Assembly (NCBI GenBank): GCA_937121175.1
Contig: CAKZKD010000039.1
Location: 62,001-126,000 of the forward strand
DNA length: 64,000 nt
Reading direction: 5' to 3'
From: an uncultured Flavobacteriales bacterium
GTDB taxonomy: Bacteria; Bacteroidota; Bacteroidia; Flavobacteriales_G; Salibacteraceae
Shown: one piece after another, positions 8,463-58,269 of the stretch
Numbering within the stretch: position 1 is the stretch's first letter
Layout of the letters: each line of letters opens with the position of its first letter
Made by a program: the position numbers and the translations under genes
The notes under the pieces: model-generated
Told to the model about the DNA's origin: nothing
The model's database searches: none
Seen by the model: the letters and a program-made list of their open reading frames with translations, nothing else

Positions 8463-8642
8463 GGCAGTGTTCTTAATGATTATTACTAAAAATATTAGAA
8501 GAATTTATTTCCCTTACTGTATTTGAATTAGACTGGTATAAATCAATTTGGTTGCCTCTTTTGGAGTTTCCAGATACAAATATGAAGATAATACTCAAAC
8601 GCTAAGCAAGTTAAATTGAGCAAACACTTAAGTACTTGAGCA

Positions 8643-13037: not shown

Positions 13038-13060
13038 CGTTAATTGTTTAATTGTCAGTT

Positions 13061-16000
13061 CTACTCAATAACAAAGCTATAAGTACCGGACTGTTGTTCC
13101 GAAAATACTTTCACCAAATACACCCCTGCTGGAACTGCTGAAATATCCAGATTTAGTTCCAACTTACCGTGGTTTGTACCTACTTCAAATTGCTCTACTT
13201 CTGCTCCAGTTACTGTTAGTAATTGCACCGTAACTTCTGCTCCTAATCCTTGTGCATATATGTTCACTTTGTCCTTCGCTGGGTTCGGGAATATGCTTGC
13301 ATTCAGGTTTGAGGCTACTTCTTCAATACCTACACAGTTGCTTACTACTACTTTAGCCGAGTCTCTACAATATTTGTACGAAGCTGCCACAGAATATTTT
13401 CCTACTGTGGTTGCACTCGTTGCAGTTCCTGCCGTTCCGTCACTCCACAAAAATCCTGTGGTAAATGGACTACTCGTAGCATTCATCTGTACCGTTCCAT
13501 CGTTGCACAATGAACCTGTTTGGGTGGCACTCACCTTAAAGTTTTTGTCCATAAACACGGCAGTGTCCATTCGTGAATAACATAAACTGTCTCCATTTCT
13601 GCCGCCTACGGCTAATGCCAGTTGGTAACCTATTGGGTATCTGCCTGCTGGCAGGCTACAAAAATCGTGTGAACCTCTATCTGCATGGTTCATCCAGAAG
13701 TAGCCGTCCCATTTGGTGTGCGATAGGCTTATATTTAAATTGGCCCAACCTGTATTTGCGGGTGTGGCTTGCACTACATCTACATAAGTTGCTGGGTCGT
13801 TCACGTCTATTTTTATATTCGGATATTTGGCTACGCGCACTAAAAGTGTATCCGTTCTTTTGTTTGCTGGTACATTAGAACCTACACAGTTCCCCGGAAC
13901 TCCAAAGCAGTAATCTTCGGTGAGTATGTGTACTTCGGGGGCTATAAATAGTTCTAGCTCATACCGACCGGTGTCTCCACAAAATCCTCCGTTTCTGGCT
14001 TCTACTGGTACTTTTCCGCCTTGTCCGTTATTGTACAGGTTTGGATGGAATACGCCTAATGTGGTGTCTATCATCGCTGCTCGATTATTTGGGTCAGTGT
14101 CGATGATTTTCCAAATGGCATTTCCTCCTGCTACTACTAAGGTATCGGTACCGCCTGTTGCACAAAACTGTTTGGTTAGTATTGGTTGGCCATTATTCAG
14201 TACGCCTAAGTAAGTTGTATCCCATGACGCTTGTACTGGTATTTTAAGAATGGTATCGTTAGTACATTTTCCATTGCTTACTACTCGCCTGAGTACTGCG
14301 GTATCGGGTTGTGTTCGCGTTGGAGCGTACTTTCTACCGTCTATCCAGTATTGGGTGTTTCCTGCTACGGTATGGGTATCTACTCCGGTTCCGATAAAAA
14401 TACCGCCTGGGGTTAGTCCTACCAATTGATGCTCGGGTACATTCCCTGCTTTGCCACACAAATAGCTTATGGGTTGTATGCCGCCCAGTGGAAGAGGGTT
14501 AATGGTAAGTTCTGTCGAGTCTTTTGAAGCACAGTTGTTTCCGGTTATTTCATAGTAAACCATAAAGGTGCCGGATCCGGACTGAGCTACATCCCATCTG
14601 CCTTGTTGACTATTGGTAATACCTGCTCCTGACCAACTTCCGCCTGGAGTGGTAACATTGGCTGGTGTGGGTGCTGTGAGGTTGATAGGTCCGCCATTGG
14701 CACATATTGGTGCTAAGGAGTCGGGTTTGGTGTTGTACTTCGTAAGTACTGTAATAGTAGTGTCTATGCTTTGAGAACATGCGCCTAATGTATCGGAGAT
14801 AGTGAGTGCATACGTCACTGGTCCTGCGCTGGCTATAAACTGAACGGAGGTGTCGTTCGTGGGTGACAACAGACCACCTGTACTGCTTGGAACAGTGTTC
14901 CACTGATAATTGTAGTCTGCAAAACTTGTTGTACAAAAACCAAATTGGGTTTGGGGTAAGACGCTTGTGCTAAGACCAATAAAGGTCTCTGAACAGGAAT
15001 TATTTGAAACTGGATTTACATAAGTCTTTGAGCTTACATAAGCGGTTCGGTCAAACTTCATCTTCGGAAGTGAACCTCTATGGCTGTTGTTTACCCAGCA
15101 AATTTCTACTATGATATTGGTGTTACCATCCCATACAAATCCTGAATCGAATACATGGGTATTCCATCCTATTGTGGGGGTATAACCAGTGTCAAAATAA
15201 ACTTGGTATAACGTGTCTGTTGCGTAGGTGTTCAGAAAGCTTTTGTTCGTACAGTTAATTTTAATGGTGAAATCGCTATAAGTTGTATTTACTGCAGGCA
15301 AGGCATCTACGTTAAATCCTATTGAGGTTATTAGGCCTTTGCTTACATTGTTTGCGGTTAGATAGTTCCTCTCGTAAAGCAACTGCATTTTTCCACTCTT
15401 ACGGGAGGAATAGTAAACTACAGGGAGGTTAGTTGTTGCCAACGTATCGTTTAGCAACGTGCCTGCACCTATCGTTTTATTCGTTAGGGTCGTTCTACAT
15501 TGTACGTTCGATAATCCGCATGACCCATAATCTATCTCACCTAAATTCAATTCTATTTTTCCGGTATCGCCTGCACATAAAAATGCTTTTGGACCAGAGA
15601 TAAAGGAACCAACAGGTAGTTCTGGCGCAGCCAAAACACCAAACTTCCCTTCTCGTACACACCCTCCTGAAGACGTAACCGTTACATCAAAATCTTGGTC
15701 GGTGGTCAGTCCGACTAGTCTTGGGTTGGCAATTGTATCGTAGTCTAAATAGTTTTTAGGTGACCACTGATAGCTGTAGCTTAAACTGGAGTTGCTGACT
15801 GGTAACGATAAAATATTGGTGTCGGACAAGCATAAATTACTGTCTAATACGCTGGGTAATCTAAAACTGTCCGTGGCTACTACCACAACCGTATCTACAT
15901 TACCAACTCCAGTTATTCGTCTTCCGCAGAAGTCAACATAACCAGCCCCGGTTAACTCAATCATTGTGGTTTGGGTAACTACAAATTTTCCTGTTTTGGC

Positions 16001-17461
16001 AGTGTCAACTCCAATGTTAGTATCAGGAAACCAGTTGATGCCTTCTCTTAATGTATCACCAGATATAGTCCTCCATGAAAACCGAGTGGAGCCTGTTGCT
16101 TGCAACGACACCGAGTCTCCGGTGCAAGCGAAAATTGTATCTGCCAAAGTTGTTCCTGTAGTAATGCCAATGAAATTCCCAAGTCTAATTTTCATTGAAA
16201 CGGCTGATTGGCCAACATGACTGCAGAAATCATCGTTGAAAATTGTGGTAAATACCAGTGGCCAGCCATAAATATTGGGGTTGGCTGTAAAAGTGTATCT
16301 TACTTTGACTTCATTTCTAATACCTGTGTTTAAAACCTGAAAACTAGCGCCAGGATGACTATCAAAATTACTTTGTATTTTGATGGTATCCGTCACGTTG
16401 GAATCTGCGAATACTTGTTCCCATGAAATCGTATTCCCAGGATTAACCCATATTGTGCCCGTTGTATCCCTTAAGGCAGTTCCTTGTAGGTTGTTAAACT
16501 CATTCTTCACATATGGGATAGAATTGGTGCAAACTGCAACATCTACCATTGCAATTCTAGAAGTTTGGGCTAGTAGAACTCCCGTACAGGGATCATACTC
16601 TTTGACTAAATAACCAACAATTTTTTTTCCTGATGTAGCAGGGGTAAAGGTCAATAGGCCAGTAATTGAGTCTAAAACAGCTCCGTTAATAGGGCTACTA
16701 GCAGAATATCCGCTACCAAAAGTCATACATCTGGTACTATCCACTTGTGGGCAAGATAATTCATATCGTAGTTTAGAGTTGGACTTATATGCTCCTAGCG
16801 AAAACGAGGATTGTTGGCCAACACATCCAATAACTACAGTTTTGTGCTCATCGTTGAAATCCGGTGATGAATAGGTAGTAGTTCCTGAATATACCTCAAC
16901 TTCCGAGTAAGCCGTGCCTGATGAAGAAATGTTAGAGCCTGGAGGAGTAAATAAATCTGGAACAATTCCAACTCGCATAGGTTGGCATGAAGCAATAGAT
17001 ACAATTGCAGAGTATCTAAATTTAACATAAGATTGAGGGCCACTTGTATTATTGCAATTTGATTTAGTTCCAGTTGGATTAAGTACACTATCGCAAATAA
17101 CTATAATCTCTTCTCCTAGCAATGTATTGGTACCATTGGTGACCGATACTGGTGGATAATTAGTTTCAAAGCCCTTGGGTGTACCAGTGCCTGGAGGTGC
17201 TACATACGCAAGATTATTTAACGTTCTAGTACTGACCATGCCAGAATTATTACATCTAACTGTTATTAATTCGGTGAGGCTCGGTGTCCAAGAACCACAT
17301 CGTACCATTTTAAAGCTTTCTATGTAATACTGATTATTTCCGAGTGACTTTACCTTTATGCCAGGATAATATGTATGTGCAGCAAACCCAAGATTAGAAA
17401 ACAACGCAACAATTACTATTGCTAATAAACCTTTAAAATCAATTGTAAAACGTCCTTTCAT
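13061..17461 (-). CDS. Giant T9SS-sorted secreted surface protein, array copy 4
   Basis: The product has 1,466 residues. Residues 1-28 are a signal peptide (MKGRFTIDFKGLLAIV...), then a divergent N-terminal domain in which the usual RDC reads VRC. Residues from about 473 to 1449 appear identical to copy 5 (18400-22812), and the DNA there also looks identical, whereas residues 1-472 differ widely. The C-terminal T9SS type A sorting domain contains FPNPAKDKVNIY, and the last 17 residues differ slightly from copy 5 (VFSEQQSGTYSFVIE against VLSEQQCGTYRVVIE). The gene starts 31 bases after the rsmI stop and is followed after 23 bases by copy 3, suggesting an rsmI-copy 4-copy 3 transcript. Function beyond surface exposure is not known. 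Confidence 0.9.
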   Translation of the reverse strand: MKGRFTIDFKGLLAIVIVALFSNLGFAAHTYYPGIKVKSLGNNQYYIESFKMVRCGSWTPSLTELITVRCNNSGMVSTRTLNNLAYVAPPGTGTPKGFETNYPPVSVTNGTNTLLGEEIIVICDSVLNPTGTKSNCNNTSGPQSYVKFRYSAIVSIASCQPMRVGIVPDLFTPPGSNISSSGTAYSEVEVYSGTTTYSSPDFNDEHKTVVIGCVGQQSSFSLGAYKSNSKLRYELSCPQVDSTRCMTFGSGYSASSPINGAVLDSITGLLTFTPATSGKKIVGYLVKEYDPCTGVLLAQTSRIAMVDVAVCTNSIPYVKNEFNNLQGTALRDTTGTIWVNPGNTISWEQVFADSNVTDTIKIQSNFDSHPGASFQVLNTGIRNEVKVRYTFTANPNIYGWPLVFTTIFNDDFCSHVGQSAVSMKIRLGNFIGITTGTTLADTIFACTGDSVSLQATGSTRFSWRTISGDTLREGINWFPDTNIGVDTAKTGKFVVTQTTMIELTGAGYVDFCGRRITGVGNVDTVVVVATDSFRLPSVLDSNLCLSDTNILSLPVSNSSLSYSYQWSPKNYLDYDTIANPRLVGLTTDQDFDVTVTSSGGCVREGKFGVLAAPELPVGSFISGPKAFLCAGDTGKIELNLGEIDYGSCGLSNVQCRTTLTNKTIGAGTLLNDTLATTNLPVVYYSSRKSGKMQLLYERNYLTANNVSKGLITSIGFNVDALPAVNTTYSDFTIKINCTNKSFLNTYATDTLYQVYFDTGYTPTIGWNTHVFDSGFVWDGNTNIIVEICWVNNSHRGSLPKMKFDRTAYVSSKTYVNPVSNNSCSETFIGLSTSVLPQTQFGFCTTSFADYNYQWNTVPSSTGGLLSPTNDTSVQFIASAGPVTYALTISDTLGACSQSIDTTITVLTKYNTKPDSLAPICANGGPINLTAPTPANVTTPGGSWSGAGITNSQQGRWDVAQSGSGTFMVYYEITGNNCASKDSTELTINPLPLGGIQPISYLCGKAGNVPEHQLVGLTPGGIFIGTGVDTHTVAGNTQYWIDGRKYAPTRTQPDTAVLRRVVSNGKCTNDTILKIPVQASWDTTYLGVLNNGQPILTKQFCATGGTDTLVVAGGNAIWKIIDTDPNNRAAMIDTTLGVFHPNLYNNGQGGKVPVEARNGGFCGDTGRYELELFIAPEVHILTEDYCFGVPGNCVGSNVPANKRTDTLLVRVAKYPNIKIDVNDPATYVDVVQATPANTGWANLNISLSHTKWDGYFWMNHADRGSHDFCSLPAGRYPIGYQLALAVGGRNGDSLCYSRMDTAVFMDKNFKVSATQTGSLCNDGTVQMNATSSPFTTGFLWSDGTAGTATSATTVGKYSVAASYKYCRDSAKVVVSNCVGIEEVASNLNASIFPNPAKDKVNIYAQGLGAEVTVQLLTVTGAEVEQFEVGTNHGKLELNLDISAVPAGVYLVKVFSEQQSGTYSFVIE
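13116..16046. repeat. 2.93-kb direct repeat, copy A (within array copy 4)
   Basis: This segment matches 18455-21385 with a constant offset of 5,339 bases. I saw no mismatch where I compared lines, and incidental open frames in other reading frames are also identical, so the match is at the DNA level and not only in the protein. The last mismatches outside it are at 13115 and 16047. The block lies wholly inside coding sequence and ends abruptly on the N-terminal side. Confidence 0.93.
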
Positions 17462-17492
17462 AATCAGTAGTTATTTGGTTTTGTTGTAGGCT

Positions 17493-18158
17493 TTAATTTT
17501 TCCCACTAACGATTAATACTATCTCTCCTTTGGGAGGATGTTCTCCGTAGTGCTTTGCAACTTCAGAACACAATCCTCTTCTATTTTCTTCGTAAACTTT
17601 TGTCAATTCTCTGGAAACACAAACCAGTCGGTCTTCTTCAAAAAACTCAATAAGTTGGTTTAATGTTTTCACCAATCGGTGTGGCGATTCGTAAAAAACT
17701 ATAGTTCGTTCCTCTTGAGCTAAGTTTTTAAGTTTGGTTTGCCTGCCTTTTTTGTGTGGTAAAAAACCTTCGAATACAAACCGGTCGCAAGGCAAGCCGC
17801 TGTTTACCAAAGCTGGAACAAAAGCTGTTGCTCCGGGTAAAGTTTCGACTTCTATTTCATGTTTAATACACTCACGAACCAATAAAAATCCCGGGTCAGA
17901 AATCCCTGGCGTACCTGCATCGCTTACTAAAGCCAATGTCTCGCCGTTTTTCATACGTTCAATTACTCGACTTAATGCCTTGTGTTCGTTGTGCTGGTGA
18001 AAAGCTGCCACTGGTTTCGAAATTTCGTAATGCTTTAACAGCTTTGCAGTTTGTCTTGTGTCTTCTGCCAGAATACCATCGACTTCTTCCAATACACGCA
18101 CACATCTGTATGTCATGTCATCCAAATTTCCGATAGGTGTAGGTACTAATTTCAACAT
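17493..18158 (-). CDS. rsmI: 16S rRNA (cytidine-1402-2'-O)-methyltransferase RsmI
   Basis: RsmI uses S-adenosylmethionine to 2'-O-methylate C1402 in the 16S rRNA decoding centre in the cytoplasm. The frame is open to 18206, but the family's start, MLKLVPTPIGNLDD, lies at 18158 and gives 221 residues, so that start is preferred. Tetrapyrrole-methylase-fold motifs seen are PTPIGNLDD, AEDTRQT, SDAGTPGISDPG, LPGATAFVPAL, FEGFLPHKKGRQ and YESPHRL. It lacks the extra C-terminal domain of longer proteobacterial homologues. It is the only non-paralogue inside the giant-gene array and precedes copy 4 by 31 bases. Upstream lies a 122-base segment duplicated upstream of copy 5. Confidence 0.93.
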   Translation of the reverse strand: MLKLVPTPIGNLDDMTYRCVRVLEEVDGILAEDTRQTAKLLKHYEISKPVAAFHQHNEHKALSRVIERMKNGETLALVSDAGTPGISDPGFLLVRECIKHEIEVETLPGATAFVPALVNSGLPCDRFVFEGFLPHKKGRQTKLKNLAQEERTIVFYESPHRLVKTLNQLIEFFEEDRLVCVSRELTKVYEENRRGLCSEVAKHYGEHPPKGEIVLIVSGKN

Positions 18159-18181
18159 TTTAATTTTATTTCTGGCAAACC

Positions 18182-18303
18182 TAGAGAAAGCTACCTGCTC
18201 GCTCAATGATTACTCTAAACTAAATCAGATGTTTCTGAAATAGGTGGTGTAGTTTGCAAAGGTGAATTCTCGATTTGTGCGAATAGGCAACCCATAAATT
18301 GTA
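18182..18303. repeat. Intergenic duplicated segment R (upstream of rsmI)
   Basis: This segment aligns without gaps to 22885-23006 at roughly 88% identity by eye, with a perfect core GCTCAATGATTACTCTAAAC. Similarity fades further out. It lies upstream of rsmI on the minus strand, and its partner lies upstream of array copy 5. It probably holds promoter sequence, but I could not assign a clear TAnnTTTG element. Confidence 0.85.
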
Positions 18304-18399
18304 TAAGGAGGTTGGTAAAAAGCAGATGAATTACCGACTCCAAACGCTACATTTTATATCAATTCAATTGTTGCGTTCAAAATCAGCAGTGGTCGCACT

Positions 18400-21300
18400 C
18401 TACTCGATAACCACTCTGTAAGTACCGCACTGTTGTTCCGATAATACTTTCACTAAATACACCCCTGCTGGAACTGCTGAAATATCCAGATTTAGTTCCA
18501 ACTTACCGTGGTTTGTACCTACTTCAAATTGCTCTACTTCTGCTCCAGTTACTGTTAGTAATTGCACCGTAACTTCTGCTCCTAATCCTTGTGCATATAT
18601 GTTCACTTTGTCCTTCGCTGGGTTCGGGAATATGCTTGCATTCAGGTTTGAGGCTACTTCTTCAATACCTACACAGTTGCTTACTACTACTTTAGCCGAG
18701 TCTCTACAATATTTGTACGAAGCTGCCACAGAATATTTTCCTACTGTGGTTGCACTCGTTGCAGTTCCTGCCGTTCCGTCACTCCACAAAAATCCTGTGG
18801 TAAATGGACTACTCGTAGCATTCATCTGTACCGTTCCATCGTTGCACAATGAACCTGTTTGGGTGGCACTCACCTTAAAGTTTTTGTCCATAAACACGGC
18901 AGTGTCCATTCGTGAATAACATAAACTGTCTCCATTTCTGCCGCCTACGGCTAATGCCAGTTGGTAACCTATTGGGTATCTGCCTGCTGGCAGGCTACAA
19001 AAATCGTGTGAACCTCTATCTGCATGGTTCATCCAGAAGTAGCCGTCCCATTTGGTGTGCGATAGGCTTATATTTAAATTGGCCCAACCTGTATTTGCGG
19101 GTGTGGCTTGCACTACATCTACATAAGTTGCTGGGTCGTTCACGTCTATTTTTATATTCGGATATTTGGCTACGCGCACTAAAAGTGTATCCGTTCTTTT
19201 GTTTGCTGGTACATTAGAACCTACACAGTTCCCCGGAACTCCAAAGCAGTAATCTTCGGTGAGTATGTGTACTTCGGGGGCTATAAATAGTTCTAGCTCA
19301 TACCGACCGGTGTCTCCACAAAATCCTCCGTTTCTGGCTTCTACTGGTACTTTTCCGCCTTGTCCGTTATTGTACAGGTTTGGATGGAATACGCCTAATG
19401 TGGTGTCTATCATCGCTGCTCGATTATTTGGGTCAGTGTCGATGATTTTCCAAATGGCATTTCCTCCTGCTACTACTAAGGTATCGGTACCGCCTGTTGC
19501 ACAAAACTGTTTGGTTAGTATTGGTTGGCCATTATTCAGTACGCCTAAGTAAGTTGTATCCCATGACGCTTGTACTGGTATTTTAAGAATGGTATCGTTA
19601 GTACATTTTCCATTGCTTACTACTCGCCTGAGTACTGCGGTATCGGGTTGTGTTCGCGTTGGAGCGTACTTTCTACCGTCTATCCAGTATTGGGTGTTTC
19701 CTGCTACGGTATGGGTATCTACTCCGGTTCCGATAAAAATACCGCCTGGGGTTAGTCCTACCAATTGATGCTCGGGTACATTCCCTGCTTTGCCACACAA
19801 ATAGCTTATGGGTTGTATGCCGCCCAGTGGAAGAGGGTTAATGGTAAGTTCTGTCGAGTCTTTTGAAGCACAGTTGTTTCCGGTTATTTCATAGTAAACC
19901 ATAAAGGTGCCGGATCCGGACTGAGCTACATCCCATCTGCCTTGTTGACTATTGGTAATACCTGCTCCTGACCAACTTCCGCCTGGAGTGGTAACATTGG
20001 CTGGTGTGGGTGCTGTGAGGTTGATAGGTCCGCCATTGGCACATATTGGTGCTAAGGAGTCGGGTTTGGTGTTGTACTTCGTAAGTACTGTAATAGTAGT
20101 GTCTATGCTTTGAGAACATGCGCCTAATGTATCGGAGATAGTGAGTGCATACGTCACTGGTCCTGCGCTGGCTATAAACTGAACGGAGGTGTCGTTCGTG
20201 GGTGACAACAGACCACCTGTACTGCTTGGAACAGTGTTCCACTGATAATTGTAGTCTGCAAAACTTGTTGTACAAAAACCAAATTGGGTTTGGGGTAAGA
20301 CGCTTGTGCTAAGACCAATAAAGGTCTCTGAACAGGAATTATTTGAAACTGGATTTACATAAGTCTTTGAGCTTACATAAGCGGTTCGGTCAAACTTCAT
20401 CTTCGGAAGTGAACCTCTATGGCTGTTGTTTACCCAGCAAATTTCTACTATGATATTGGTGTTACCATCCCATACAAATCCTGAATCGAATACATGGGTA
20501 TTCCATCCTATTGTGGGGGTATAACCAGTGTCAAAATAAACTTGGTATAACGTGTCTGTTGCGTAGGTGTTCAGAAAGCTTTTGTTCGTACAGTTAATTT
20601 TAATGGTGAAATCGCTATAAGTTGTATTTACTGCAGGCAAGGCATCTACGTTAAATCCTATTGAGGTTATTAGGCCTTTGCTTACATTGTTTGCGGTTAG
20701 ATAGTTCCTCTCGTAAAGCAACTGCATTTTTCCACTCTTACGGGAGGAATAGTAAACTACAGGGAGGTTAGTTGTTGCCAACGTATCGTTTAGCAACGTG
20801 CCTGCACCTATCGTTTTATTCGTTAGGGTCGTTCTACATTGTACGTTCGATAATCCGCATGACCCATAATCTATCTCACCTAAATTCAATTCTATTTTTC
20901 CGGTATCGCCTGCACATAAAAATGCTTTTGGACCAGAGATAAAGGAACCAACAGGTAGTTCTGGCGCAGCCAAAACACCAAACTTCCCTTCTCGTACACA
21001 CCCTCCTGAAGACGTAACCGTTACATCAAAATCTTGGTCGGTGGTCAGTCCGACTAGTCTTGGGTTGGCAATTGTATCGTAGTCTAAATAGTTTTTAGGT
21101 GACCACTGATAGCTGTAGCTTAAACTGGAGTTGCTGACTGGTAACGATAAAATATTGGTGTCGGACAAGCATAAATTACTGTCTAATACGCTGGGTAATC
21201 TAAAACTGTCCGTGGCTACTACCACAACCGTATCTACATTACCAACTCCAGTTATTCGTCTTCCGCAGAAGTCAACATAACCAGCCCCGGTTAACTCAAT

Positions 21301-47993: not shown

Positions 47994-49466
47994 TTGAAAC
48001 GTAAAATTTTACCTCTTACAGCATTTCTTGTTGCTACACTTGTCACGCTTATGCTGTTATTGATAGGTTGGGCTCAGCAATCTATTGAACTAAGACAGTC
48101 TTTGTTTATCGATCAATTGAACAAATCTCTAGGTGAAAAAATCAAGCAATATGAGTCGACTTATTATTGCTTCGAATTTGAGGCCAATTCCTATTTTACT
48201 GAACCTAATTCATTTGGATTAATCAATCCGTTTCGTAAAAAAAACGACACCGTTGACCTTTCTGAGATTCAAATTCAACACAAGTCTTCAGACGGTGAGA
48301 AACGCATGTATGACAAAATTCCGGTGTATTCTGCGGGTAGAATAAATATGAAAATACTTATGGAATTTGAAATGATTCCCGAGGTGAAACACGACTCTGA
48401 ATTAACTGGGGCAGAGAAATTTATCCGGAATTATTATAAAAATTGTCTTGTAGATTCAAATGGTAAGCGGCTTGCAGACCCAATAATCTTAGACTCTTTG
48501 ATAAATCAATCTATAATAGAAATTAATCCAGAAGCTGAATACGTTTATACCTTGGCAAAGCAAGGTGAAGCTCAGCCTTTTTTCGAAAGTGCTACAACGA
48601 ACCAACAAATCGCAAATCTCGATTTCGTACTCTACACTCACGATGAGAAAGTAGATAACCTTGTTCTTTCAGTGTTCATTCCAAATTTGGAAAAATTATT
48701 TTCGAACCAATCTTGGAATGTCTATTTAAGCTCTGGAATTCTCATTTTCATTGCCTTACTGCTCATTGGGTATTTGGTTTGGATGCAAATTCAGCAACGC
48801 AAAATGATTATTGCACAGCAAAATTTTGTGCACAGTATGACCCATGAGTTTAATACACCCCTGACTAGTATAAAACTAATCGCTCAAAAATTATTGAATT
48901 CACCAGAAGAACCTTTTTTCAAGTCGGGTAAGATTTTGAAAGAAGAAGGCAATCGACTGCAGACTGGAATTAATCTAGTATTAACCACTGCCCTAATTGA
49001 GAAGGATGAACTTCTGTTGCAAAAAGAGGATATTGATATCAATGCAATTCTGTTAAAACTAGCAGATAGGAACGAAGAATTGTTCAGGCTTAAAAACATT
49101 GAACTAGAGTTGATGCTTACTGAAAAAAGTGTGCTGTTTTTTGGTGATGAATTTCATTTAGAAAACGTATTCCAAAATGTATTAAACAACGCCCTAAAGC
49201 ATAGTGATGGAAGTATGGTTATTATTCGAACCTTGAGGTCTGAAAAAGAAATTATTCTTCAGATAGCTGATGATGGCAAAGGAATTCCCAAACAAAATAG
49301 ATCAACAATATTCCAAAAATTTGGAGGAAGAACCAGTAAGAGCGGTAAGAATGGATTTGGACTAGGATTATTCTATTCCAAAACCATTATTGATATGCAT
49401 AAAGGCTCAATTGTATTGTTGAGCCCAGAAAAGGGAACCGAATTCGAAATACGCTTAAAAACATGA
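47994..49466 (+). CDS. Sensor histidine kinase
   Basis: The product has 490 residues from a TTG start (no ATG fits better). One membrane segment lies at about 7-28 and the second at about 243-264; the roughly 215 residues between them form a periplasmic sensor of no recognised family. The HisKA motif VHSMTHEFNTPL gives phospho-His H284. The HATPase boxes are FQNVLNNALKHS, ADDGKGIPKQ and GFGLGLFYS. The last four bases overlap the start of the response regulator gene, so the two form an operon and should be cognate partners. Confidence 0.93.
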   Translation: MKRKILPLTAFLVATLVTLMLLLIGWAQQSIELRQSLFIDQLNKSLGEKIKQYESTYYCFEFEANSYFTEPNSFGLINPFRKKNDTVDLSEIQIQHKSSDGEKRMYDKIPVYSAGRINMKILMEFEMIPEVKHDSELTGAEKFIRNYYKNCLVDSNGKRLADPIILDSLINQSIIEINPEAEYVYTLAKQGEAQPFFESATTNQQIANLDFVLYTHDEKVDNLVLSVFIPNLEKLFSNQSWNVYLSSGILIFIALLLIGYLVWMQIQQRKMIIAQQNFVHSMTHEFNTPLTSIKLIAQKLLNSPEEPFFKSGKILKEEGNRLQTGINLVLTTALIEKDELLLQKEDIDINAILLKLADRNEELFRLKNIELELMLTEKSVLFFGDEFHLENVFQNVLNNALKHSDGSMVIIRTLRSEKEIILQIADDGKGIPKQNRSTIFQKFGGRTSKSGKNGFGLGLFYSKTIIDMHKGSIVLLSPEKGTEFEIRLKT

Positions 49467-50152
49467 TTACAGACAAAAAAATATTGTTGGTTGAAGATGA
49501 CGCGAATTTAGCTTACCTCATTGAAAACGAATTAAACGAGAAAAATGCTAAAACTACAGTTTGCAAAAACGCTACAGAGGGGCTTGACAATTTTAAAACC
49601 ACAATTTTTGACCTCTGTATTTTTGATATTCAATTGCCTGACTATGATGGTATTCAACTGGCAAGAAAAGTAAAAATGATTGACCAAAAAATTCCATTAA
49701 TTTTTTTGACATCCAGAAATTTAAAAAGTGATCAACTAAAAGGATATGCGGTTGGAGCAGACGATTATGTGACAAAGCCATTCGATGCTGAGCTTTTATT
49801 GGTTAAGATTAAAGCAATATTACAACGCTGTAATCCAGAACTCGACACCAAAATTGAAGAAATAAAGGTGAATGACTTCTCCATAAATTCCATTCGTAAA
49901 ACGCTAAATACACCTAAGCAAAAAATTGGAATGAGTAAGACTGAAATTGGAATTTTGTTTCTGCTGTTTAGCGAGTTTAAACAACCCGTTTCAAGAGAAA
50001 GACTCATGAAAGAAGTTTGGGGCAGAAGTGATTTTTACATTTCAAAATGCCTTGATGTATATATCAATAGAGTGCGTAAAGTATTGCACCAAGAAACGAA
50101 TTTGGTTCTGCGAACCATACATGCTTTTGGTTTCACCTTAGAGAACAAATAA
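49463..50152 (+). CDS. OmpR/PhoB-type response regulator
   Basis: The product has 229 residues. The receiver domain (about 1-120) has the acidic pair in VEDD, phospho-acceptor D55 in FDIQLPDYDG and the conserved K105 in YVTKPF. The C-terminal winged helix (about 130-228) shows KTEIGILFLLFSE, RERLMKEVW and VYINRVRKVLHQET, all typical of the OmpR/PhoB output domain. Such domains bind tandem direct repeats with about 11-base spacing. Three T9SS cargo genes next door have upstream TTAA-N7-TTAA repeats with that spacing and are candidate targets; this is inference. Confidence 0.94.
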   Translation: MITDKKILLVEDDANLAYLIENELNEKNAKTTVCKNATEGLDNFKTTIFDLCIFDIQLPDYDGIQLARKVKMIDQKIPLIFLTSRNLKSDQLKGYAVGADDYVTKPFDAELLLVKIKAILQRCNPELDTKIEEIKVNDFSINSIRKTLNTPKQKIGMSKTEIGILFLLFSEFKQPVSRERLMKEVWGRSDFYISKCLDVYINRVRKVLHQETNLVLRTIHAFGFTLENK

Positions 50153-50269
50153 AAACCAACTTCTTGAAACGAACCAAGACCTTGCAATTAAAATAGATTC
50201 TTGAATAGCCTCCTCGATTAATTTTAAATTCACCATCAGCAGTCTTTGATCTACGAACTCTTTTCAATT

Positions 50270-50285
50270 CTTAAATGTTTCTTAA
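50270..50285 (+). promoter_or_regulatory. Candidate OmpR-type direct-repeat site (site 1)
   Basis: CTTAA occurs at 50270 and again at 50281, an 11-base period, within CTTAAATGTTTCTTAA. It lies 72 bases before the ATG at 50358. About 16 of 20 positions agree with site 2 by eye, and the following 25 bases (TTG-N3-AT-N-AGGCA-N-CTATGA) are also shared with site 2. Confidence 0.55.
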
Positions 50286-50357
50286 TGAATTGATAATAAG
50301 GCAACTATGAGCGCCCTGTACAGTCTTTCAATTATTGATAACTTAAAATTAATAATC

Positions 50358-51473
50358 ATGAAAAAAATGTATTTAGTTGCCATATCGGCATTGGTAGGAA
50401 CATTTGCACCTAGCCTTCAAGCCCAAGAATATGCAGATCTTCCCAAACTTGGAGATGAATATAAAATGAATGTATTTGATGCCTCTGGTATCACGCTTTC
50501 AGGCAAAGGTGAAGACCAAATTTGGGATTATTCTACTTATACAAATTACACCAACACATTTAGTTTAAAGGTGGTCGACCCAAAACTTCAGCCCGAAGGA
50601 AATAGTTTTGCAAATGCTGACATTGCTATAGTTAATAATTATTACGGTAGTGATGGCTTTAGCTCAAACGACCACACTATTCATTACTTCAAAGTAGAAA
50701 CAGGTGGCATAACAAAATTAGGGCGAGTAGATAAAAGCACCGGGCCCAATCCTTCTGTAGTATTAATTAACGCCTTTAGTACTGACACAGAAACCTATCT
50801 TAAACTACCCCTAAAATTCGGTGAATCCAACACCGATACATGGACTGGTGATGGGTTCGTTTCTATAGGTATGACAGTAAAGTGGGTTAATGGAAAAAAC
50901 TCATACGAAGTCGATGGTTCTGGCACATTGAAACTTCCAGGAAAAACAGTAAAAAACGTATTGAGAATAAAGCGAACAAGAGAATACGTTAACGACAACT
51001 CCCGTCTGGGGGCAACACAAAGAAAAAGAGTAATGTACGAATGGTATGTAGCTTCTATTGCAGCTCCAATATTGACCATTGTTGAAGAAATCCCAGAAGG
51101 GCCTACTCCGACCTCAAGTTTCGAAGGGTTTGTAATGGACGCGGAAGCTCTAAATACCATTGTGGAAAAAGACACGACAAAAGATGACGCTACTGCTGTA
51201 AACGAAGAATCATTCACAAACTCCGTAACCACATTTCCTAACCCCACCATCGACTTTTTGAACGTGAGACTTAATGGTGATAATTCTTCGGCCCTAAAAA
51301 TTTCAATAACCGATATTTTGGGAAAAACTGTGTATCAAGCAAAAATCCCAAGTGGGTCAGGAAATGAAATTAAAACCATAGATGTGAGAAAATTGGATGC
51401 TGGGATATATTATTTACAGGTAGAAGATAATGAGAGAATACTGTCAAATGACAAAATAATAGTTGGTTCATAG
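50358..51473 (+). CDS. T9SS-sorted secreted protein (paralogue of 52106-53200)
   Basis: The frame opens at 50307, but the ATG at 50358 starts the signal peptide (MKKMYLVAISALVGTF...LQAQ), giving 371 residues. The mature N-terminal domain (about 20-255) has YADLPKLGDEYKMNVFDASG and GEDQIWDYSTY, repeated in the paralogue as FSDIPKIGDVYTMHNFDASG and GEDQVWDYSNL. I do not know a name for this domain. The C-terminal 85 residues are a T9SS type A domain (TFPNPTIDFLNVRL ... GIYYLQVED). It follows the kinase/regulator operon by about 205 bases and has direct-repeat site 1 upstream. Confidence 0.88.
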   Translation: MKKMYLVAISALVGTFAPSLQAQEYADLPKLGDEYKMNVFDASGITLSGKGEDQIWDYSTYTNYTNTFSLKVVDPKLQPEGNSFANADIAIVNNYYGSDGFSSNDHTIHYFKVETGGITKLGRVDKSTGPNPSVVLINAFSTDTETYLKLPLKFGESNTDTWTGDGFVSIGMTVKWVNGKNSYEVDGSGTLKLPGKTVKNVLRIKRTREYVNDNSRLGATQRKRVMYEWYVASIAAPILTIVEEIPEGPTPTSSFEGFVMDAEALNTIVEKDTTKDDATAVNEESFTNSVTTFPNPTIDFLNVRLNGDNSSALKISITDILGKTVYQAKIPSGSGNEIKTIDVRKLDAGIYYLQVEDNERILSNDKIIVGS

Positions 51474-51496
51474 CGTAGGTTCGCTTCCTCGATGTA

Positions 51497-51530
51497 AAGC
51501 TTCAATGGATTTCCATTGAGGCTTTTTTTT
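51497..51530 (+). terminator. Intrinsic terminator of the 50358 gene
   Basis: The stem GCTTCAATGGA/TCCATTGAGGC (one G-T pair) with a short loop is followed by eight T bases, 23 bases after the stop codon. Confidence 0.87.
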
Positions 51531-51557
51531 GGCAGTGTTGTAAAATAATGGGGGAAT

Positions 51558-51623
51558 GTCATTATTCCAGCGCAGGCAGGAATCTTATAGATTTCTACAG
51601 ATTCCCGCTTTCGGAGGAATGAC
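51558..51623. repeat. Imperfect palindrome with GTCATT/GAATGAC ends
   Basis: GTCATTATTCCAGCGCAGG and its imperfect inverse near 51601-51623 (CCCGCTTTCGGAGGAATGAC) form a hairpin around AATCTTATAGATTTCTACAG. Such GTCATTCC elements are frequent dispersed intergenic repeats in many genomes. It lies inside the 500-base gap between two convergent genes. Confidence 0.7.
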
Positions 51624-52043
51624 GATACTGTAAAAAAGCCATATTACTCTGCAACTCTGCATTTTTATATTCGTTCTTATTGAGGAATTTAGAAACTCCC
51701 GAGTGTCCAATTCTTGCATTCATTCTGAACTAGGTTGAACATCTTAAATAGCTTGTTAAACTCAGTAAAAATTGGAACAATTGCCATTACAATGGTACGC
51801 TGTAAAAAGAACTAGAAGAAAATTTAGATTCACAAAAACAAGTTCTTGGAAAACGTCGATATTCTGACCAGAATTTGATCTTAGGTATTCAGAATAACTT
51901 TTCTAGATGTATTGTCTCTGGTTCCCCTCCTTATTGATACGCTGCATTTTTAAAATAGGAGACTTATTATCAAACTTTATGGATTAAACCAATTCCGCAC
52001 TGCACAAAACACCCTACCGAAGAATAACCAAATTACTTAAAGT
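51624..52043. other. Non-coding gap between convergent T9SS genes
   Basis: No open frame, tRNA or clear hairpin is visible in these 420 bases. They may be decayed sequence; I see no similarity to the rest of the window. Confidence 0.5.
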
Positions 52044-52077
52044 CAAAAAAAGCCACAACATTTAAATGTTGTGGCTT
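52044..52077 (-). terminator. Intrinsic terminator of the 52106 gene
   Basis: The 26-base perfect palindrome AGCCACAACATTT/AAATGTTGTGGCT, preceded by a run of A bases that reads as T on the minus strand, lies 29 bases after the stop. Confidence 0.85.
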
Positions 52078-52105
52078 ACCCAAATAATCGAACTCTTCGT
52101 TAACC

Positions 52106-53200
52106 CTACATTGGATTAAGAATAAGTTTTTTAGTGTATTCCATATTATTTTCAGTTATTACTTTCAGGTAATAGAATCCTGGCTGGAATCCATCTAAAT
52201 TTAATACAAGTTCATTTTCACGTTCCAATTCCAAAGAAGGGTTACGAATCATTTCCTTTCCGCCTACTTCCACTACACTTAGAAGTTTAATTTTCTCATT
52301 GTTACCCACCAGAATACGAACGTTATCAGTAGCTGGGTTAGGGTAAATTTCCAAAGAATTATTTCTGGAATGGTATTCCTCAGAACTCGGTTTTTCTTCA
52401 GGTTCTTTTTCTACTCCAACTACATCCTTATACTCTTCCTCCGCCATTATATAACCAACAAAATAATTTGCGCCTCCGCCGGAGTTAATATTCTCTTCTA
52501 TTGCCAAAACTGGAAACGGAATTGTTGGAACATACCATTCGTAAATAACTCGTTCCACTACTCCACTACTAGCTCCTCGGATTCTAATGTATTTTCTTGT
52601 CCTTTTTACACGAATAACATTCATTGTTTTGCCAGGAAGTTTCAAAGTACCAGTGGCCTCCACTTCGTACGCATTTTGACCCGCACTCCATGTAATTAAG
52701 CCTAGGCCACCAGCGGTGTAAGAGGTGTTCCAGGCATCTGTATTTTTTGACCCAAATTCCAGAGGCAACTTCATATGAACTTCATCATCTGTAAACTTAT
52801 TGATGTAAATAATGGAACCCCCTGTTGGTTGAACTTTATCTACCCGTCCAAGTTTTGTGAGGGTAGATGATTCCGTTTTGTAGTAGTGCGTATTGTATGC
52901 GCTAATTCTGCTTGCACCAATAAAATACTTTACCACAGCAATGTCGGCATCGGTAAAATTATTTCCCTCCGGTTCATTTTTGGGATCTACCACGCTAATA
53001 TCAAAAGTGTCTGTGTTAATTAGGTTAGAATAATCCCACACCTGATCTTCCCCAACGCTAGAAATGGTTACCCCAGATGCATCGAAATTGTGCATGGTAT
53101 AAACGTCTCCTATTTTCGGTATATCAGAAAACTTCGTTTGAGCGTCAAGATGAACCGTGCTAATAACGCAAGTAAGAGCTGCTAAATACAGTTTTTTCAT
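52106..53200 (-). CDS. T9SS-sorted secreted protein (paralogue of 50358-51473)
   Basis: The product has 364 residues. A signal peptide (MKKLYLAALTCVISTVHLDAQ) precedes a domain clearly homologous to the 50358 product (GDVYTMHNFDASGVTISS, NFTDADIAVVKY, LKLPGKTMNVIRVKRTRKY). An acidic linker (EKEPEEKPSSEEY) leads to a T9SS type A domain (IYPNPATDNVRILV ... GFYYLKVITE). The gene is convergent with its paralogue, each having its own terminator. Upstream it has direct-repeat site 2. No enzyme motif is visible. Confidence 0.88.
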   Translation of the reverse strand: MKKLYLAALTCVISTVHLDAQTKFSDIPKIGDVYTMHNFDASGVTISSVGEDQVWDYSNLINTDTFDISVVDPKNEPEGNNFTDADIAVVKYFIGASRISAYNTHYYKTESSTLTKLGRVDKVQPTGGSIIYINKFTDDEVHMKLPLEFGSKNTDAWNTSYTAGGLGLITWSAGQNAYEVEATGTLKLPGKTMNVIRVKRTRKYIRIRGASSGVVERVIYEWYVPTIPFPVLAIEENINSGGGANYFVGYIMAEEEYKDVVGVEKEPEEKPSSEEYHSRNNSLEIYPNPATDNVRILVGNNEKIKLLSVVEVGGKEMIRNPSLELERENELVLNLDGFQPGFYYLKVITENNMEYTKKLILNPM

Positions 53201-53280
53201 AATATCAATTTTAAGTTTAGTAATCTATTATCAATACCTTGACGTAAACTGATTATCATAGATGCCTGATATACAAAATG

Positions 53281-53296
53281 TTAAGTAAGTTTTAAG
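53281..53296 (-). promoter_or_regulatory. Candidate OmpR-type direct-repeat site (site 2)
   Basis: On the minus strand, CTTAA at 53296 and at 53285 gives an 11-base period (CTTAAAACTTACTTAA). It lies 80 bases before the ATG at 53200. The 13 bases AATCTTAAAACTT are identical at site 3. Confidence 0.55.
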
Positions 53297-53416
53297 ATTT
53301 GATCGATAAAATTGTAGCTGTATAATGTTCTAAGTAATTCATTCTTTTAGCAACAGGCTACCCATAAGGCAAATGTTCTTGTCACCGAATGAAGTAATCC
53401 CAACTAAAATGGAATC

Positions 53417-53431
53417 TTAAAACTTTATTAA
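53417..53431 (+). promoter_or_regulatory. Candidate OmpR-type direct-repeat site (site 3)
   Basis: TTAA at 53417 and 53428 has the same 11-base period. The preceding AATCTTAAAACTT is identical to site 2, which faces the other way 120 bases off. It lies 97 bases before the ATG at 53529. Sequence further downstream does not match the other two sites. Confidence 0.45.
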
Positions 53432-53528
53432 AGTTCTGATTTTCAATAGTTAAAAATCGAATTAGTCCTCATATTTGAATTACTAAAACATGGAGATCGA
53501 AACGATTTTCCTCGAAATAGCTCTACTT

Positions 53529-54245
53529 ATGAAGGCAACTGCAATTACGGTTTTAATATGGTTTATATCTCAAGCTCTTTATGCGCAATGTACACCGAAT
53601 GCATCGTTCAATGCTCCCGGTAATCATACCACAGCTGGAGAAGGAAAAATGAATAGTGCCGAAATTAATTCGGACTATTCTGAAACGATTACAGTGATTC
53701 CTCCAGTCTCTTATGATACGTTTGGGCTGCCAATTGCGGTGGATTCTATTAGAATAAACGGGGTACTTAATTTACCGGATGGATTAAGTTTCAGTATTGG
53801 AAAAAAACTGATTAAAAGGGGTAAAAAAAGTTGCATTTCAATCGTTGGAAAACCTACCTCCAATAATAACCTAGGAGAGCAAACAATAACTTTGGATCTG
53901 ACCTACTTTGCCAATCGCGGAAGTAGTATCAAGCATCCAAAAAACATGAGCTTAGAGCTAAAGAAAGAACCTGAAGATACCACTACTGGGATATTACAAA
54001 GCCCAGTTTTAAAGCAGGATATCCGTGTTTTTCCAAACCCTAACAATGGAAATTTCATTGTTGATGTTGGTGACCTAAAAGAGGCTACTTCTCTTGAAAT
54101 ACTAGACTTACGGGGGATGATTGTATTTGAATCAACTATTGAAAGCCAAAAAATTGTAGTGAAGTTGGATCAACCAGCCGGTGCATACTTTCTTAGAATG
54201 TACTTAAGTCAAAGTTTCATTACACAACGCATACTAATTCAATAA
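53529..54245 (+). CDS. Small T9SS-sorted secreted protein
   Basis: The frame opens at 53490; the ATG at 53529 starts the signal peptide (MKATAITVLIWFISQALYAQ), giving 238 residues. The mature part begins CTPNASFNAPGNHTTAGEG and forms one beta-rich domain of about 130 residues, with no family recognised. The last 80 residues are a T9SS type A domain (VFPNPNNGNFIVDVGDLKEA ... GAYFLRMYLS) whose sequence resembles the end of the gene at 55399 more than the others. It is divergent from the 52106 gene and is the third gene with a TTAA-N7-TTAA repeat upstream. A hairpin terminator follows the stop. Confidence 0.82.
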   Translation: MKATAITVLIWFISQALYAQCTPNASFNAPGNHTTAGEGKMNSAEINSDYSETITVIPPVSYDTFGLPIAVDSIRINGVLNLPDGLSFSIGKKLIKRGKKSCISIVGKPTSNNNLGEQTITLDLTYFANRGSSIKHPKNMSLELKKEPEDTTTGILQSPVLKQDIRVFPNPNNGNFIVDVGDLKEATSLEILDLRGMIVFESTIESQKIVVKLDQPAGAYFLRMYLSQSFITQRILIQ

Positions 54246-54553: not shown

Positions 54554-54787
54554 ATGACAACATTCACAAGTACTCTTCCCGATGAGCTTTTGCAACAATT
54601 GCAAGAAAAAGCTCAATTGCTTAAGCTTCCTAAAAACAAACTGATAGAAAAAGCATTGAGAATTTATTTGAACCAAATAACCCGAGCAGAATACATCAAA
54701 TCGTACAAGGCCATGGAAGAAGATACCAACATTGCTGCAATTGCAGAAGAAGGCATGACAGATTATCTGAAACAAACCGATGCCTAA
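54554..54787 (+). CDS. Antitoxin, ribbon-helix-helix type
   Basis: The product has 77 residues. The N-terminal FTSTLPDELLQQLQEKA and LPKNKLIEKALRIYL show the strand-helix-helix pattern of RHH DNA-binding proteins. The C-terminal part (MEEDTNIAAIAEEGMTDYL) is acidic and probably wraps the toxin. Such antitoxins bind their own promoter and repress the operon. The stop overlaps the first ATG of the toxin gene by eight bases. Confidence 0.88.
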   Translation: MTTFTSTLPDELLQQLQEKAQLLKLPKNKLIEKALRIYLNQITRAEYIKSYKAMEEDTNIAAIAEEGMTDYLKQTDA

Positions 54788-55124
54788 CATGCAAAAAGGC
54801 GAGATATGGTTGGTTAACCTCAACCCAACAAAGGGCAGCGAGCAGGCAGGAACTCGACCAGTAGTAATTGTTTCTGGTAATTTACTGAACAACTTCGCTC
54901 CGGTAGTGTGGATATGTCCCATTACATCTAAGATTAAAAACTACAAGGGAAATCTGGTTCTAAAACCAACTAAAAAGAATGGACTTACCGAAAAATCTGA
55001 AGTACTTAACCTTCATTTACGGTCAGTTGCAAAAGAGCGACTGATTAAAAAACTGGGAGTGATTTCAGCTACCGAATTAACTCATACTAGAAGAGGTTTA
55101 AGCGAAATTATGCAGTTGGATTAA
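54780..55124 (+). CDS. MazF/PemK-family toxin (endoribonuclease)
   Basis: The product has 114 residues from the ATG at 54780, or 111 from a second at 54789. GEIWLVNLNPTKGSEQAGTR, PVVIVSGNLLN, VWICPITSKIK and LHLRSVAKERL are the standard MazF/PemK features, including the Arg of the TRPV motif thought to act in RNA cleavage. The toxin cuts mRNA at short sites; the specificity cannot be read from sequence. It follows its RHH antitoxin with overlap, a normal type II arrangement. The module lies between direct repeats, suggesting it was acquired as a unit. Confidence 0.92.
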   Translation: MPNMQKGEIWLVNLNPTKGSEQAGTRPVVIVSGNLLNNFAPVVWICPITSKIKNYKGNLVLKPTKKNGLTEKSEVLNLHLRSVAKERLIKKLGVISATELTHTRRGLSEIMQLD

Positions 55125-55398: not shown

Positions 55399-58269
55399 AT
55401 GAAAAACTTATTTTACGCCTTCTTTGCTATTTTCATTTTCTTAATTCCATCTTTAAGTTTTGCTCAACTTTCAGGGAATTACACCATTAATTCTTCCGCT
55501 CCGACAAGTGGTACAAACTTTATCTCATTTACGTCTGCAATAAATTCCTTAAGTACCTCTGGCGTGTCAGGAAGCGTAAACTTTCAGGTCCAAAACGGCA
55601 CTTACACCGAACAAATATCAATTCCAAACATTACCGGCGCCAGTGCCACCAACACTATTACGTTCAAAGGAAAAGGTGCGTTAACTAAACTAATCGCCGC
55701 ACCTTCTACATCTAAATTACCTGTGTTAAGTATAAATGGTGGGAGTCATATTGTGATAGATAGCCTTGATATTTCTGCAACTGGTAGTAGGGGCTGGGCT
55801 GTGCACTTTATGGGTGAATCGGATTCGAATACAATTACTAATTGCATTCTTAGTGCTCCGAAAATGTCCAATAGCTACGGAATTATTACTTCAAGTTCCG
55901 CAACTTCTACCTCGGTATCGAAAAATGAAGCGGAATTCGTAACTATTTCGAACAACACAATCAACGGTGGAACAGATGGAATTTTAATTAAAGGAGCTAC
56001 TTCTCCGTTAACTTCTCCTTCCCGAAAAGTAAATTACGGAACTAACATCCACATTGTTGGAAATACAATACAAAATTTTACTTCCAAAGGTATGGATCTA
56101 AGCAACAATCACAAAGTTTCGATAATATCGAACACCGTAAAATCTTCTGAATCTACTGCCGCATATTGTGTTCGATACTGGGATGCTGGTGATAGTTCGC
56201 AAATTATTGGTAACGATTTTTATATCTCGTCCAACGTAGCACACACCCGAGTTGTTGCCTTATCTATGGCGCCGGCCAATGGAGACCCCGGGTCTGCCTC
56301 AAAACCAATCATAATCGCCAATAACTTTATTCAATATCGTGGTTCAAATACAACTACCCCTACTGGTTTATTACTTAAAAACAAAGCTCATATAAAGGTG
56401 TACAACAACACAATTAGTATTAAAAATCAAGGTTCATCTGCAAATTGCATTTGGTTTGATGCCAATAACTCAAGGTCATTGAACGGAATTGAGGTAAAAA
56501 ACAATGTGCTCGTTTTGGAAAATAGCGGTTCTGGACATTTTATATTCAATGCTGCCAATGGAGCGTCTTTTAAAAATATGGCAATAGACCACAACAACTT
56601 CTATGCACCGGCCAATTACTTTAGTGTAAGAGTACCTAACGGGACAACCGGAACCGCCAACCTATCATCTTTTGCGGCATACACTGGAAGCGCATATGGT
56701 ACTGGGGCACTCAACGTTGATCCATTATTTTTGGGAACAACTAAACTGCACGCTACGAGCGCACTCATGAACGATAGCGGGGTAGTTATTTCTTCAATTA
56801 CCGATGATATTGACGGCGATGTTAGAAGTACCACCTCACCAGACATGGGAGCAGATGAATACACTCCGGGGCAAATAATTTGCCCTGGTTCTCAAACCAT
56901 TCATTCGTGTAACACGGTAAACGTAACCGTGGGTACTAGTACATACACAATGGCTGGAACTTACACCGATACGCTTATTGGGTCTCGAGGATGTGATTCG
57001 GTGGTGACCACAACCATTGCGCTAGGGTCTTCTTCCTCATCAATTGATACTGTTGTAGCTTGTGACACCTACACTTGGATAAACGGATTAACTTATTCTT
57101 CCTCTAACAATACGGCAACTGACACGTTGCTAAATGCGGGAGGTTGTGATTCAATAATTACACTATACTTGACTATTCTTAATAGTTCTAGAAGCATTGA
57201 TACCATTGTAGCATGCGAAAGTCATACATGGATAAATGGACTTACCTATCGAGCTAGTACGTCAACCGTAACTCACAAATTGGTAAACAGGGCTGGATGT
57301 GATTCCATTATAACGCTAAATCTGACGATTAATAAAAATAGTATAGGAGTTGACCTTCAGTCTGCATGCGATTCACTAAAGTGGATTGATGGAAATACAT
57401 ATACAAAGGACACTACCAGTGCTACGCATACCATACTGAATTCCGCAGGTTGTGACTCCCTTGTTTTTCTCAACCTGACAATTAATACTGAAACGTTTGG
57501 CAGCGATATTCAGACTGCCTGTGGCGCATACAAATGGTTAGATGGAAACACTTACACGAGCAATAATAATTCTGCTACACACCTCTTAACCAATTCAAAA
57601 GGTTGTGACTCCACGGTAACGCTAAATCTAACCGTTTTACCGCGCTTAAGCGGAACCGATACACAAGTACACTGTGATAGCTATACGTGGAGAAACGGAA
57701 CTACCTATACTACCAATAATAATTCAGCAACTGACACGCTAACCGGTTCTAATGGTTGCGATTCTGTGGTAACACTTGATTTGACCATCAATACTGTTGA
57801 TACTACAATCGTTCAAGCTATTTCGGCTGCAAGCTTAAGTTCAGCAGCTTTAAATGGGACTTACCAGTGGATTGACTGTGATGACAAAAGCCCAATCAAG
57901 AGTGAAACTAACATTGGCTTTACACCAACTTCAAATGGAAGCTTTGCTGTGATTGTAACTCAAAACAACTGTACTGATACAAGTTCATGTGTTGAAATAA
58001 CCGGAGTTGGAGTTGGTAATGTGAAAACATCTGAAAGCATTAGTGTTTTCCCGAACCCAAGTAATGGAAGTTTCACCATTGATTTTGGTAACCTTCATGA
58101 AGTAACTTCTTTCGATATTTTGAATTTACAAGGGCAAATTATTTACCAATCAGACATTACAAAGGATAAAATGGATGTAAACCTTAGTCAATCTCAATCT
58201 GTTGGCTCTTATGTGCTAAGAATAAAGGGACGTGAATTTTCCTATATCGAACAGATTGTAATTCAATAA
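55399..58269 (+). CDS. Beta-helix T9SS-sorted secreted protein with C-terminal repeats
   Basis: The product has 956 residues with a signal peptide (MKNLFYAFFAIFIFLIPSLSFAQ). Residues 25-490 look like a right-handed parallel beta-helix: runs such as SNTITNCILS, VTISNNTINGGTDG, IHIVGNTIQNF and VSIISNTVKSS are typical of pectate-lyase or surface-binding folds. Residues 498-800 hold six Cys-rich repeats of about 47-50 residues. A T9SS type A domain (VFPNPSNGSFTIDFGNL) ends the protein. The product may bind or cleave polysaccharide, but no lyase residues could be assigned. Confidence 0.9.
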   Translation: MKNLFYAFFAIFIFLIPSLSFAQLSGNYTINSSAPTSGTNFISFTSAINSLSTSGVSGSVNFQVQNGTYTEQISIPNITGASATNTITFKGKGALTKLIAAPSTSKLPVLSINGGSHIVIDSLDISATGSRGWAVHFMGESDSNTITNCILSAPKMSNSYGIITSSSATSTSVSKNEAEFVTISNNTINGGTDGILIKGATSPLTSPSRKVNYGTNIHIVGNTIQNFTSKGMDLSNNHKVSIISNTVKSSESTAAYCVRYWDAGDSSQIIGNDFYISSNVAHTRVVALSMAPANGDPGSASKPIIIANNFIQYRGSNTTTPTGLLLKNKAHIKVYNNTISIKNQGSSANCIWFDANNSRSLNGIEVKNNVLVLENSGSGHFIFNAANGASFKNMAIDHNNFYAPANYFSVRVPNGTTGTANLSSFAAYTGSAYGTGALNVDPLFLGTTKLHATSALMNDSGVVISSITDDIDGDVRSTTSPDMGADEYTPGQIICPGSQTIHSCNTVNVTVGTSTYTMAGTYTDTLIGSRGCDSVVTTTIALGSSSSSIDTVVACDTYTWINGLTYSSSNNTATDTLLNAGGCDSIITLYLTILNSSRSIDTIVACESHTWINGLTYRASTSTVTHKLVNRAGCDSIITLNLTINKNSIGVDLQSACDSLKWIDGNTYTKDTTSATHTILNSAGCDSLVFLNLTINTETFGSDIQTACGAYKWLDGNTYTSNNNSATHLLTNSKGCDSTVTLNLTVLPRLSGTDTQVHCDSYTWRNGTTYTTNNNSATDTLTGSNGCDSVVTLDLTINTVDTTIVQAISAASLSSAALNGTYQWIDCDDKSPIKSETNIGFTPTSNGSFAVIVTQNNCTDTSSCVEITGVGVGNVKTSESISVFPNPSNGSFTIDFGNLHEVTSFDILNLQGQIIYQSDITKDKMDVNLSQSQSVGSYVLRIKGREFSYIEQIVIQ
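56893..57795 (+). repeat. Six-unit protein repeat region in the 55399 gene
   Basis: Units of about 47-50 codons carry the pattern CDxYTWxxGxTYTxxNNxATxTLxNxxGCDSxVTLxLTI. The first unit is degenerate and the other five are clear. The DNA copies differ at many positions, so they are old rather than newly amplified. Confidence 0.85.

Follow-up and report, generated by a model that had tools for sequence, protein, structure and literature searches.

A putative two-component switch for a three-gene set of type IX-secreted surface proteins in an uncultured Flavobacteriales bacterium

A stretch of 64,000 nucleotides from an uncultured marine Flavobacteriales bacterium (here called the window) encodes a histidine kinase and an OmpR/PhoB-family response regulator beside three genes for cargo proteins of the type IX secretion system (T9SS), and each cargo gene is preceded by a direct repeat of the form TCTTAAA-N4-TCTTAAA. 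Comparison across related genomes makes it highly likely that this dedicated two-component system directly controls the three genes as a surface-protein regulon. The pair and the repeat would together probably form a small dedicated sensor-to-surface-protein switch, because the cargo genes bear a rare tag that also precedes their counterparts in other genera. The initial annotation had proposed such a local circuit from kinase and regulator to secreted proteins, and the proposal gained support from the conservation of neighborhood and repeat in another genus, from a distant ortholog of the third cargo gene in that genus, and from a tripled repeat in a further genome. The features concerned are as follows.

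47994..49466, + strand: sensor histidine kinase of 490 aa with a TTG start, HisKA and HATPase_c domains
49463..50152, + strand: OmpR/PhoB-family response regulator, 229 aa, Response_reg and Trans_reg_C domains
50269..50285, + strand: predicted operator A, TCTTAAATGTTTCTTAA, 89 bp upstream of A
50358..51473, + strand: cargo gene A, secreted protein of 371 aa, T9SS type A C-terminal domain
52106..53200, - strand: cargo gene B, 364 aa, paralog of A, T9SS type A domain
53281..53297, - strand: predicted operator B, TCTTAAAACTTACTTAA, 97 bp upstream of B
53415..53431, + strand: predicted operator C, TCTTAAAACTTTATTAA, 114 bp upstream of C
53529..54245, + strand: cargo gene C, T9SS type A protein of 238 aa

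The start of the regulator gene overlaps the stop of the kinase gene by 4 bases, and the pair is one operon. Domain searches confirmed that this operon encodes an OmpR/PhoB-type regulator with its own kinase: both HisKA and HATPase_c exceeded the Pfam cut-off in the kinase, as did PF00072 (82.5 bits) and PF00486 (52.3 bits) in the regulator. The kinase consists of a transmembrane helix, a periplasmic sensor of about 215 residues, a second transmembrane helix, HisKA, and HATPase_c. No Pfam model matched the sensor; its structure prediction was weak (mean pLDDT, 57.5), and a Foldseek search with that model returned nothing useful. The best NCBIfam model for the regulator was RprY (NF051850), but the score of 177.7 bits fell well short of the 370 bits required for an equivalog, and an identification as RprY itself was rejected. 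A separate RprY-like regulator is encoded elsewhere in the same genome (C18).

All three cargo genes carry the T9SS type A C-terminal domain, with TIGR04183 scores of 43.0, 36.5, and 39.3 bits for A, B, and C, respectively (cut-off, 23 bits), and with PF18962 likewise above the Pfam cut-off. By eye, the N termini look like signal peptides; in gene C, an in-frame ATG is present at 53490, but the signal peptide begins at 53529. A and B are 39 to 41% identical to each other, whereas C shows no relationship to B outside the sorting domain. The genome encodes SprA (2,342 bits) and contains at least 150 T9SS tail-domain matches. To our knowledge, no regulation is known for individual T9SS cargo in such genomes, and the functions of these proteins are mostly unknown. 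The structure prediction for cargo A was weak (mean pLDDT, 60.7), and Foldseek with that model found only the Ig-like sorting domain; a search of viral contigs for relatives of the cargo proteins found none. Other genes were noticed in the window. At about 4000 to 18700 (C39:57012-80633), six T9SS tail matches lie on the minus strand, 4 to 5 kb apart, in frames (1,469 to 1,492 aa of open-frame length) that resemble a tandem array of large secreted paralogs. Just past gene C (54780 to 55124) is a 114-aa protein that by eye is MazF/PemK-toxin-like, and after the cluster (55399 to 58269) is a 956-aa T9SS protein with repeats of the form CDS..TL.LTI...D...CD.YTW..G.TY.

The element first noticed upstream of the three genes was TTAA-N7-TTAA. 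It was found at 50271 to 50285, 53281 to 53295, and 53417 to 53431, so that the coordinates given in the initial annotation held to within one base, the first start (50270) being off by one. A 13-mer reported as common to the last two sites, AATCTTAAAACTT, was indeed identical at 53287 to 53299 (minus strand) and 53413 to 53425 (plus strand) and was absent from the rest of the 3.73-Mb genome. As the definition of an element, however, TTAA-N7-TTAA proved too loose: the sites are real, but the true operator appears to be a 7-mer repeat. Composition statistics were taken from 1.38 Mb of stretches of this genome, and motif searches covered all 3.73 Mb. The loose motif occurred 5 times in the window, compared to 6.5 in shuffles, and at 200 places genome-wide, with a rate of 0.25 per kb between genes and 0.04 per kb within genes in the 1.38-Mb sample. 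At the intergenic rate, one match in the gap before A together with two in the gap between B and C has a P value of about 1e-4. An enrichment upstream of T9SS genes failed to appear in the 1.38-Mb sample, in which the motif preceded 1 of 50 T9SS-like genes (a count that leaves out A, B, and C themselves) compared to 16 of 333 other genes. This ratio and the 200 places genome-wide rule out a general T9SS promoter signal. Thus, clustering at the three genes was significant, although the frequency in the window was not above that in shuffles and general enrichment at T9SS genes was not seen.

Comparison between genomes gave a more exact element, TCTTAAA-N4-TCTTAA(A), i.e., a 7-mer direct repeat with a 4-base spacer. 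A 17-mer, TCTTAAAACTTTCTTAA, was defined from two cargo promoters of Crocinitomicaceae bacterium SAT141 (PAVO01000055; G005), which belongs to the same family but to another genus, and was then searched in the genome under study. At up to 2 mismatches, it occurred at exactly three places in 3.73 Mb, and these were the promoters of A (2 mismatches), B (1 mismatch), and C (1 mismatch); the reversed control pattern occurred at 10 places. At three mismatches, the 1.38-Mb sample yielded 15 further matches, of which 13 were inside genes, the only ones between genes being L096:14400 and window position 39854. Across 42 genomes of the order, 9 places matched at up to 1 mismatch, and 5 of these were the cargo promoters of this genome and G005. 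On this sequence evidence, the clustering of repeat-bearing sites is very unlikely to be due to chance, and the refined 17-mer is decisive on the point.

The TCTTAA units lie 11 bp apart upstream of the predicted targets in three genera, which fits the suggestion that a direct repeat of this period would suit an OmpR/PhoB-type protein. All seven predicted operators have one orientation and are placed between -85 and -114 relative to the start codon. Upstream of orthologous genes, the motif keeps 15 or 16 of 17 bases, compared to 8 to 14 of the preceding 35 bases. No recognizable Bacteroidota -7 box (TAnnTTTG) was seen in the seven operator-bearing promoters; since only 28% of genes here show this box, its absence weighs little either way. 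No repeat was found upstream of the kinase gene in three of the four genomes (the one under study, G005, and G014), and autoregulation of the operon was rejected for these. In the fourth (G025), the repeat stands between the kinase gene and a divergent cargo gene and could serve both.

In G005, the kinase, the regulator, and two A/B-type cargo genes follow one another on a single strand, with identities to the genes described here of 65% for the regulator, 43 to 45% for the cargo, and 56% for the kinase sensor. The 17-mer is present in both kinase-linked cargo promoters of G005, at -93 and -90, and in that genome only three exact copies exist. The third is on another contig, at -111 of the gene C ortholog (200 residues aligned at 49% identity), so a gene that is not homologous to A or B keeps the site away from the kinase-regulator pair. 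Gene C therefore carries the site in both genomes, and between its two upstream regions 16 of 17 motif bases agree, compared to 11 of the 35 bases preceding the motif. The G005 ortholog is preceded by what we take to be glycine dehydrogenase (named from sequence recognition), a small gene, and a UbiA-like gene. In the window, the order is glycine dehydrogenase, small gene, UbiA-like gene, kinase, regulator, A, B, and C. The same genes stand upstream in both; therefore, the block that lies between the UbiA-like gene and C in the window lies elsewhere in G005. A different kinase-regulator pair was observed beside another T9SS cargo gene at G005 C41 (L161:4813-9713), with a 1-mismatch 17-mer nearby; it is possibly a second example of kinase-cargo linkage.

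The kinase sensor domain was found in 4 of 42 genomes of the order, namely, the genome under study (G000), G005, G014, and, weakly, G025; no additional ones turned up in 395 genomes sampled from the class. The G014 kinase is an ortholog (33% identity), and that of G025 is a distant relative. The T9SS gene adjoining the pair in these two genomes encodes a GEVED-domain protein, 29% identical between them. In the G025 gap between kinase and cargo genes, three units follow one another at 11 bp, TCTTAAG-TTTT-TCTTAGC-GAGA-TCTTAAG, 85 bp before the ATG of the divergent cargo gene. Dinucleotide shuffles of this gap produced the double repeat in 0.035% of cases (P = 3.5e-4) and the triple repeat in none of 20,000, although this figure is not blind because the repeat was noticed on inspecting the gap. 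The stronger point is that TCTTAR-N5-TCTTAR occurs at a single place in the 3.1-Mb G025 genome. No clear copy precedes the cargo gene of G014, where a degenerate TTTTAAG-N4-TGTTAGG at -92 is all that was seen, and the G014 regulator (L062:9380-9474) appears frameshifted near its C terminus, where similarity is lost and the expected ending is in another frame, owing either to a sequencing error or to a broken regulator. For these two reasons, G014 neither supports nor refutes the proposal. Directly after the kinase-regulator operon of G025, on the same strand, a secreted-looking protein of 1,530 aa is encoded (L163:3515-8107); no confident domain match was obtained for it.

Close orthologs of the pair were found in two genomes plus G014 only. 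Control homologs were scored for the 17-mer within 180 bp upstream. Neither the homologs of gene C (about 10 to 11, from ten other genomes including G014) nor 11 A/B-family homologs lacking a close copy of the pair had the motif, the best matches in each set showing 5 to 10 mismatches.

Some additional sites may belong to the regulon. At C2:314400-314416 (L096:14400-14416) of the genome under study, TCTTAAATTTATCTTAA stands 26 bp before the gene for a 246-aa T9SS protein, within the interval separating that gene from a divergently oriented one that also encodes a T9SS protein, and may be a fourth target with unusual spacing or may be chance. Chance may also account for each of the further candidates, which are the 1-mismatch 17-mer at G005 C41, between a reductase-like gene and a secreted protein gene, and the sites at 1841092 and 4049631 of G014. 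A site at C5:120071 of the genome under study was rejected because it is inside a gene.

In the proposed mechanism, the kinase would sense a periplasmic or envelope signal and phosphorylate its operon partner. The phosphorylated regulator would then bind TCTTAAA-N4-TCTTAAA as a tandem dimer, with one monomer per 7-mer and the two 11 bp apart, and binding at 50269 to 50285, 53281 to 53297, and 53415 to 53431 would control, and most likely activate, A, B, and C, whose products would be exported via the T9SS as surface or secreted proteins. We infer that this regulator is the binder, that it activates, that the cargo is delivered to the surface, and that the kinase senses a signal. On comparative grounds, the support for a predicted operator is strong, and that for its assignment to the linked regulator is good.

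Coincidence would be a natural reading of an AT-rich pattern found after looking, and TTAA-N7-TTAA, with 200 places in the genome and no over-representation in the window, would fit it. The refined motif, however, was defined in another genome and then matched this one at exactly three promoters, which leaves coincidence hardly credible. The motif might instead be a remnant of a promoter that was copied when the cargo genes duplicated, with no special regulator attached to it. Indeed, A, B, and the two G005 cargo genes are paralogs, and their upstream regions can still be aligned; therefore, part of the motif sharing among these four is due to descent. Yet gene C is not homologous to them and its G005 ortholog has the exact motif on another contig, the motif has been kept while its flanks have diverged, and G025 has the repeat at an unrelated type of cargo (GEVED). 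We consider descent as the whole explanation very improbable.

A more serious alternative, although still an unlikely one, is that the operator, although genuine, is recognized by another OmpR/PhoB regulator of the cell, the neighboring pair being incidental. The genome provides 21 matches to the regulator at E values of ≤0.001, several with 36 to 38% identity, and direct repeats with an 11-bp period suit the whole OmpR/PhoB family. However, the pair is linked with motif-bearing cargo genes in three genera, and where genomes encode RprY-type regulators but lack the pair, their cargo homologs are without the motif. Moreover, the four linked regulators have in common a distinct stretch of the recognition helix, [IV]SK[SC]LDV; at this position, the four RprY-type paralogs in the alignment read LGR or NSR and then SMDV or SLDV. 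The reading that we prefer thus remains control of A, B, and C by the adjacent pair. Beyond it, we tentatively raise the somewhat less than even possibility of a family of Crocinitomicaceae-type two-component systems, each devoted to a single T9SS surface protein or a small number of them. Such a portable module would exchange its cargo type (A/B/C in two genera and GEVED in two others) and keep the kinase, the TCTTAA repeat at 11 bp, and a position near -90.

No paper joining Crocinitomicaceae, two-component regulation, and type IX secretion was found among the open-access papers searched, and the system appears to be made of parts of known kinds in a regulon undescribed there. Genomes like this one have 150 or more T9SS cargo genes, for which a regulator-operator-cargo unit with a defined site would offer a concrete handle, and the conserved kinase sensor points to a signal for which the surface proteins are made.

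Among known systems, the TCTTAAA-ACTT-TCTTAAA layout equals that of the site of Mycobacterium tuberculosis PhoP, a regulator of the same family whose tandem dimer recognizes 7-bp direct repeats set strictly 4 bp apart (PMC4832192). In the operators of M. tuberculosis PhoP, Escherichia coli PhoB, and KdpE, a tandem regulator dimer likewise reads direct repeats, but the half-site sequences and targets differ from those predicted here. RprX/RprY of Bacteroides and Porphyromonas is likewise a Bacteroidota kinase with an OmpR/PhoB-family regulator. The regulator described here differs from RprY in its score below the equivalog cut-off, in its recognition helix, and in its coexistence with a separate RprY-like regulator. 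RprY in Porphyromonas gingivalis has been linked to oxidative and sodium stress (PMC3646045) rather than to a private cargo set such as that proposed here. In P. gingivalis, the type IX secretion pathway is under the two-component control of PorX/PorY-SigP (PMC4800418, PMC8050853), which acts on secretion machinery genes partly via an ECF sigma factor; the porX and porY genes are nonadjacent (PMC4800418), and a consensus site had yet to be defined (PMC8050853). In contrast, the pair described here is an operon, and its predicted targets are cargo genes with a repeat of their own, which suggests that the cargo side of the T9SS, and not just the machinery, can have its own two-component control.
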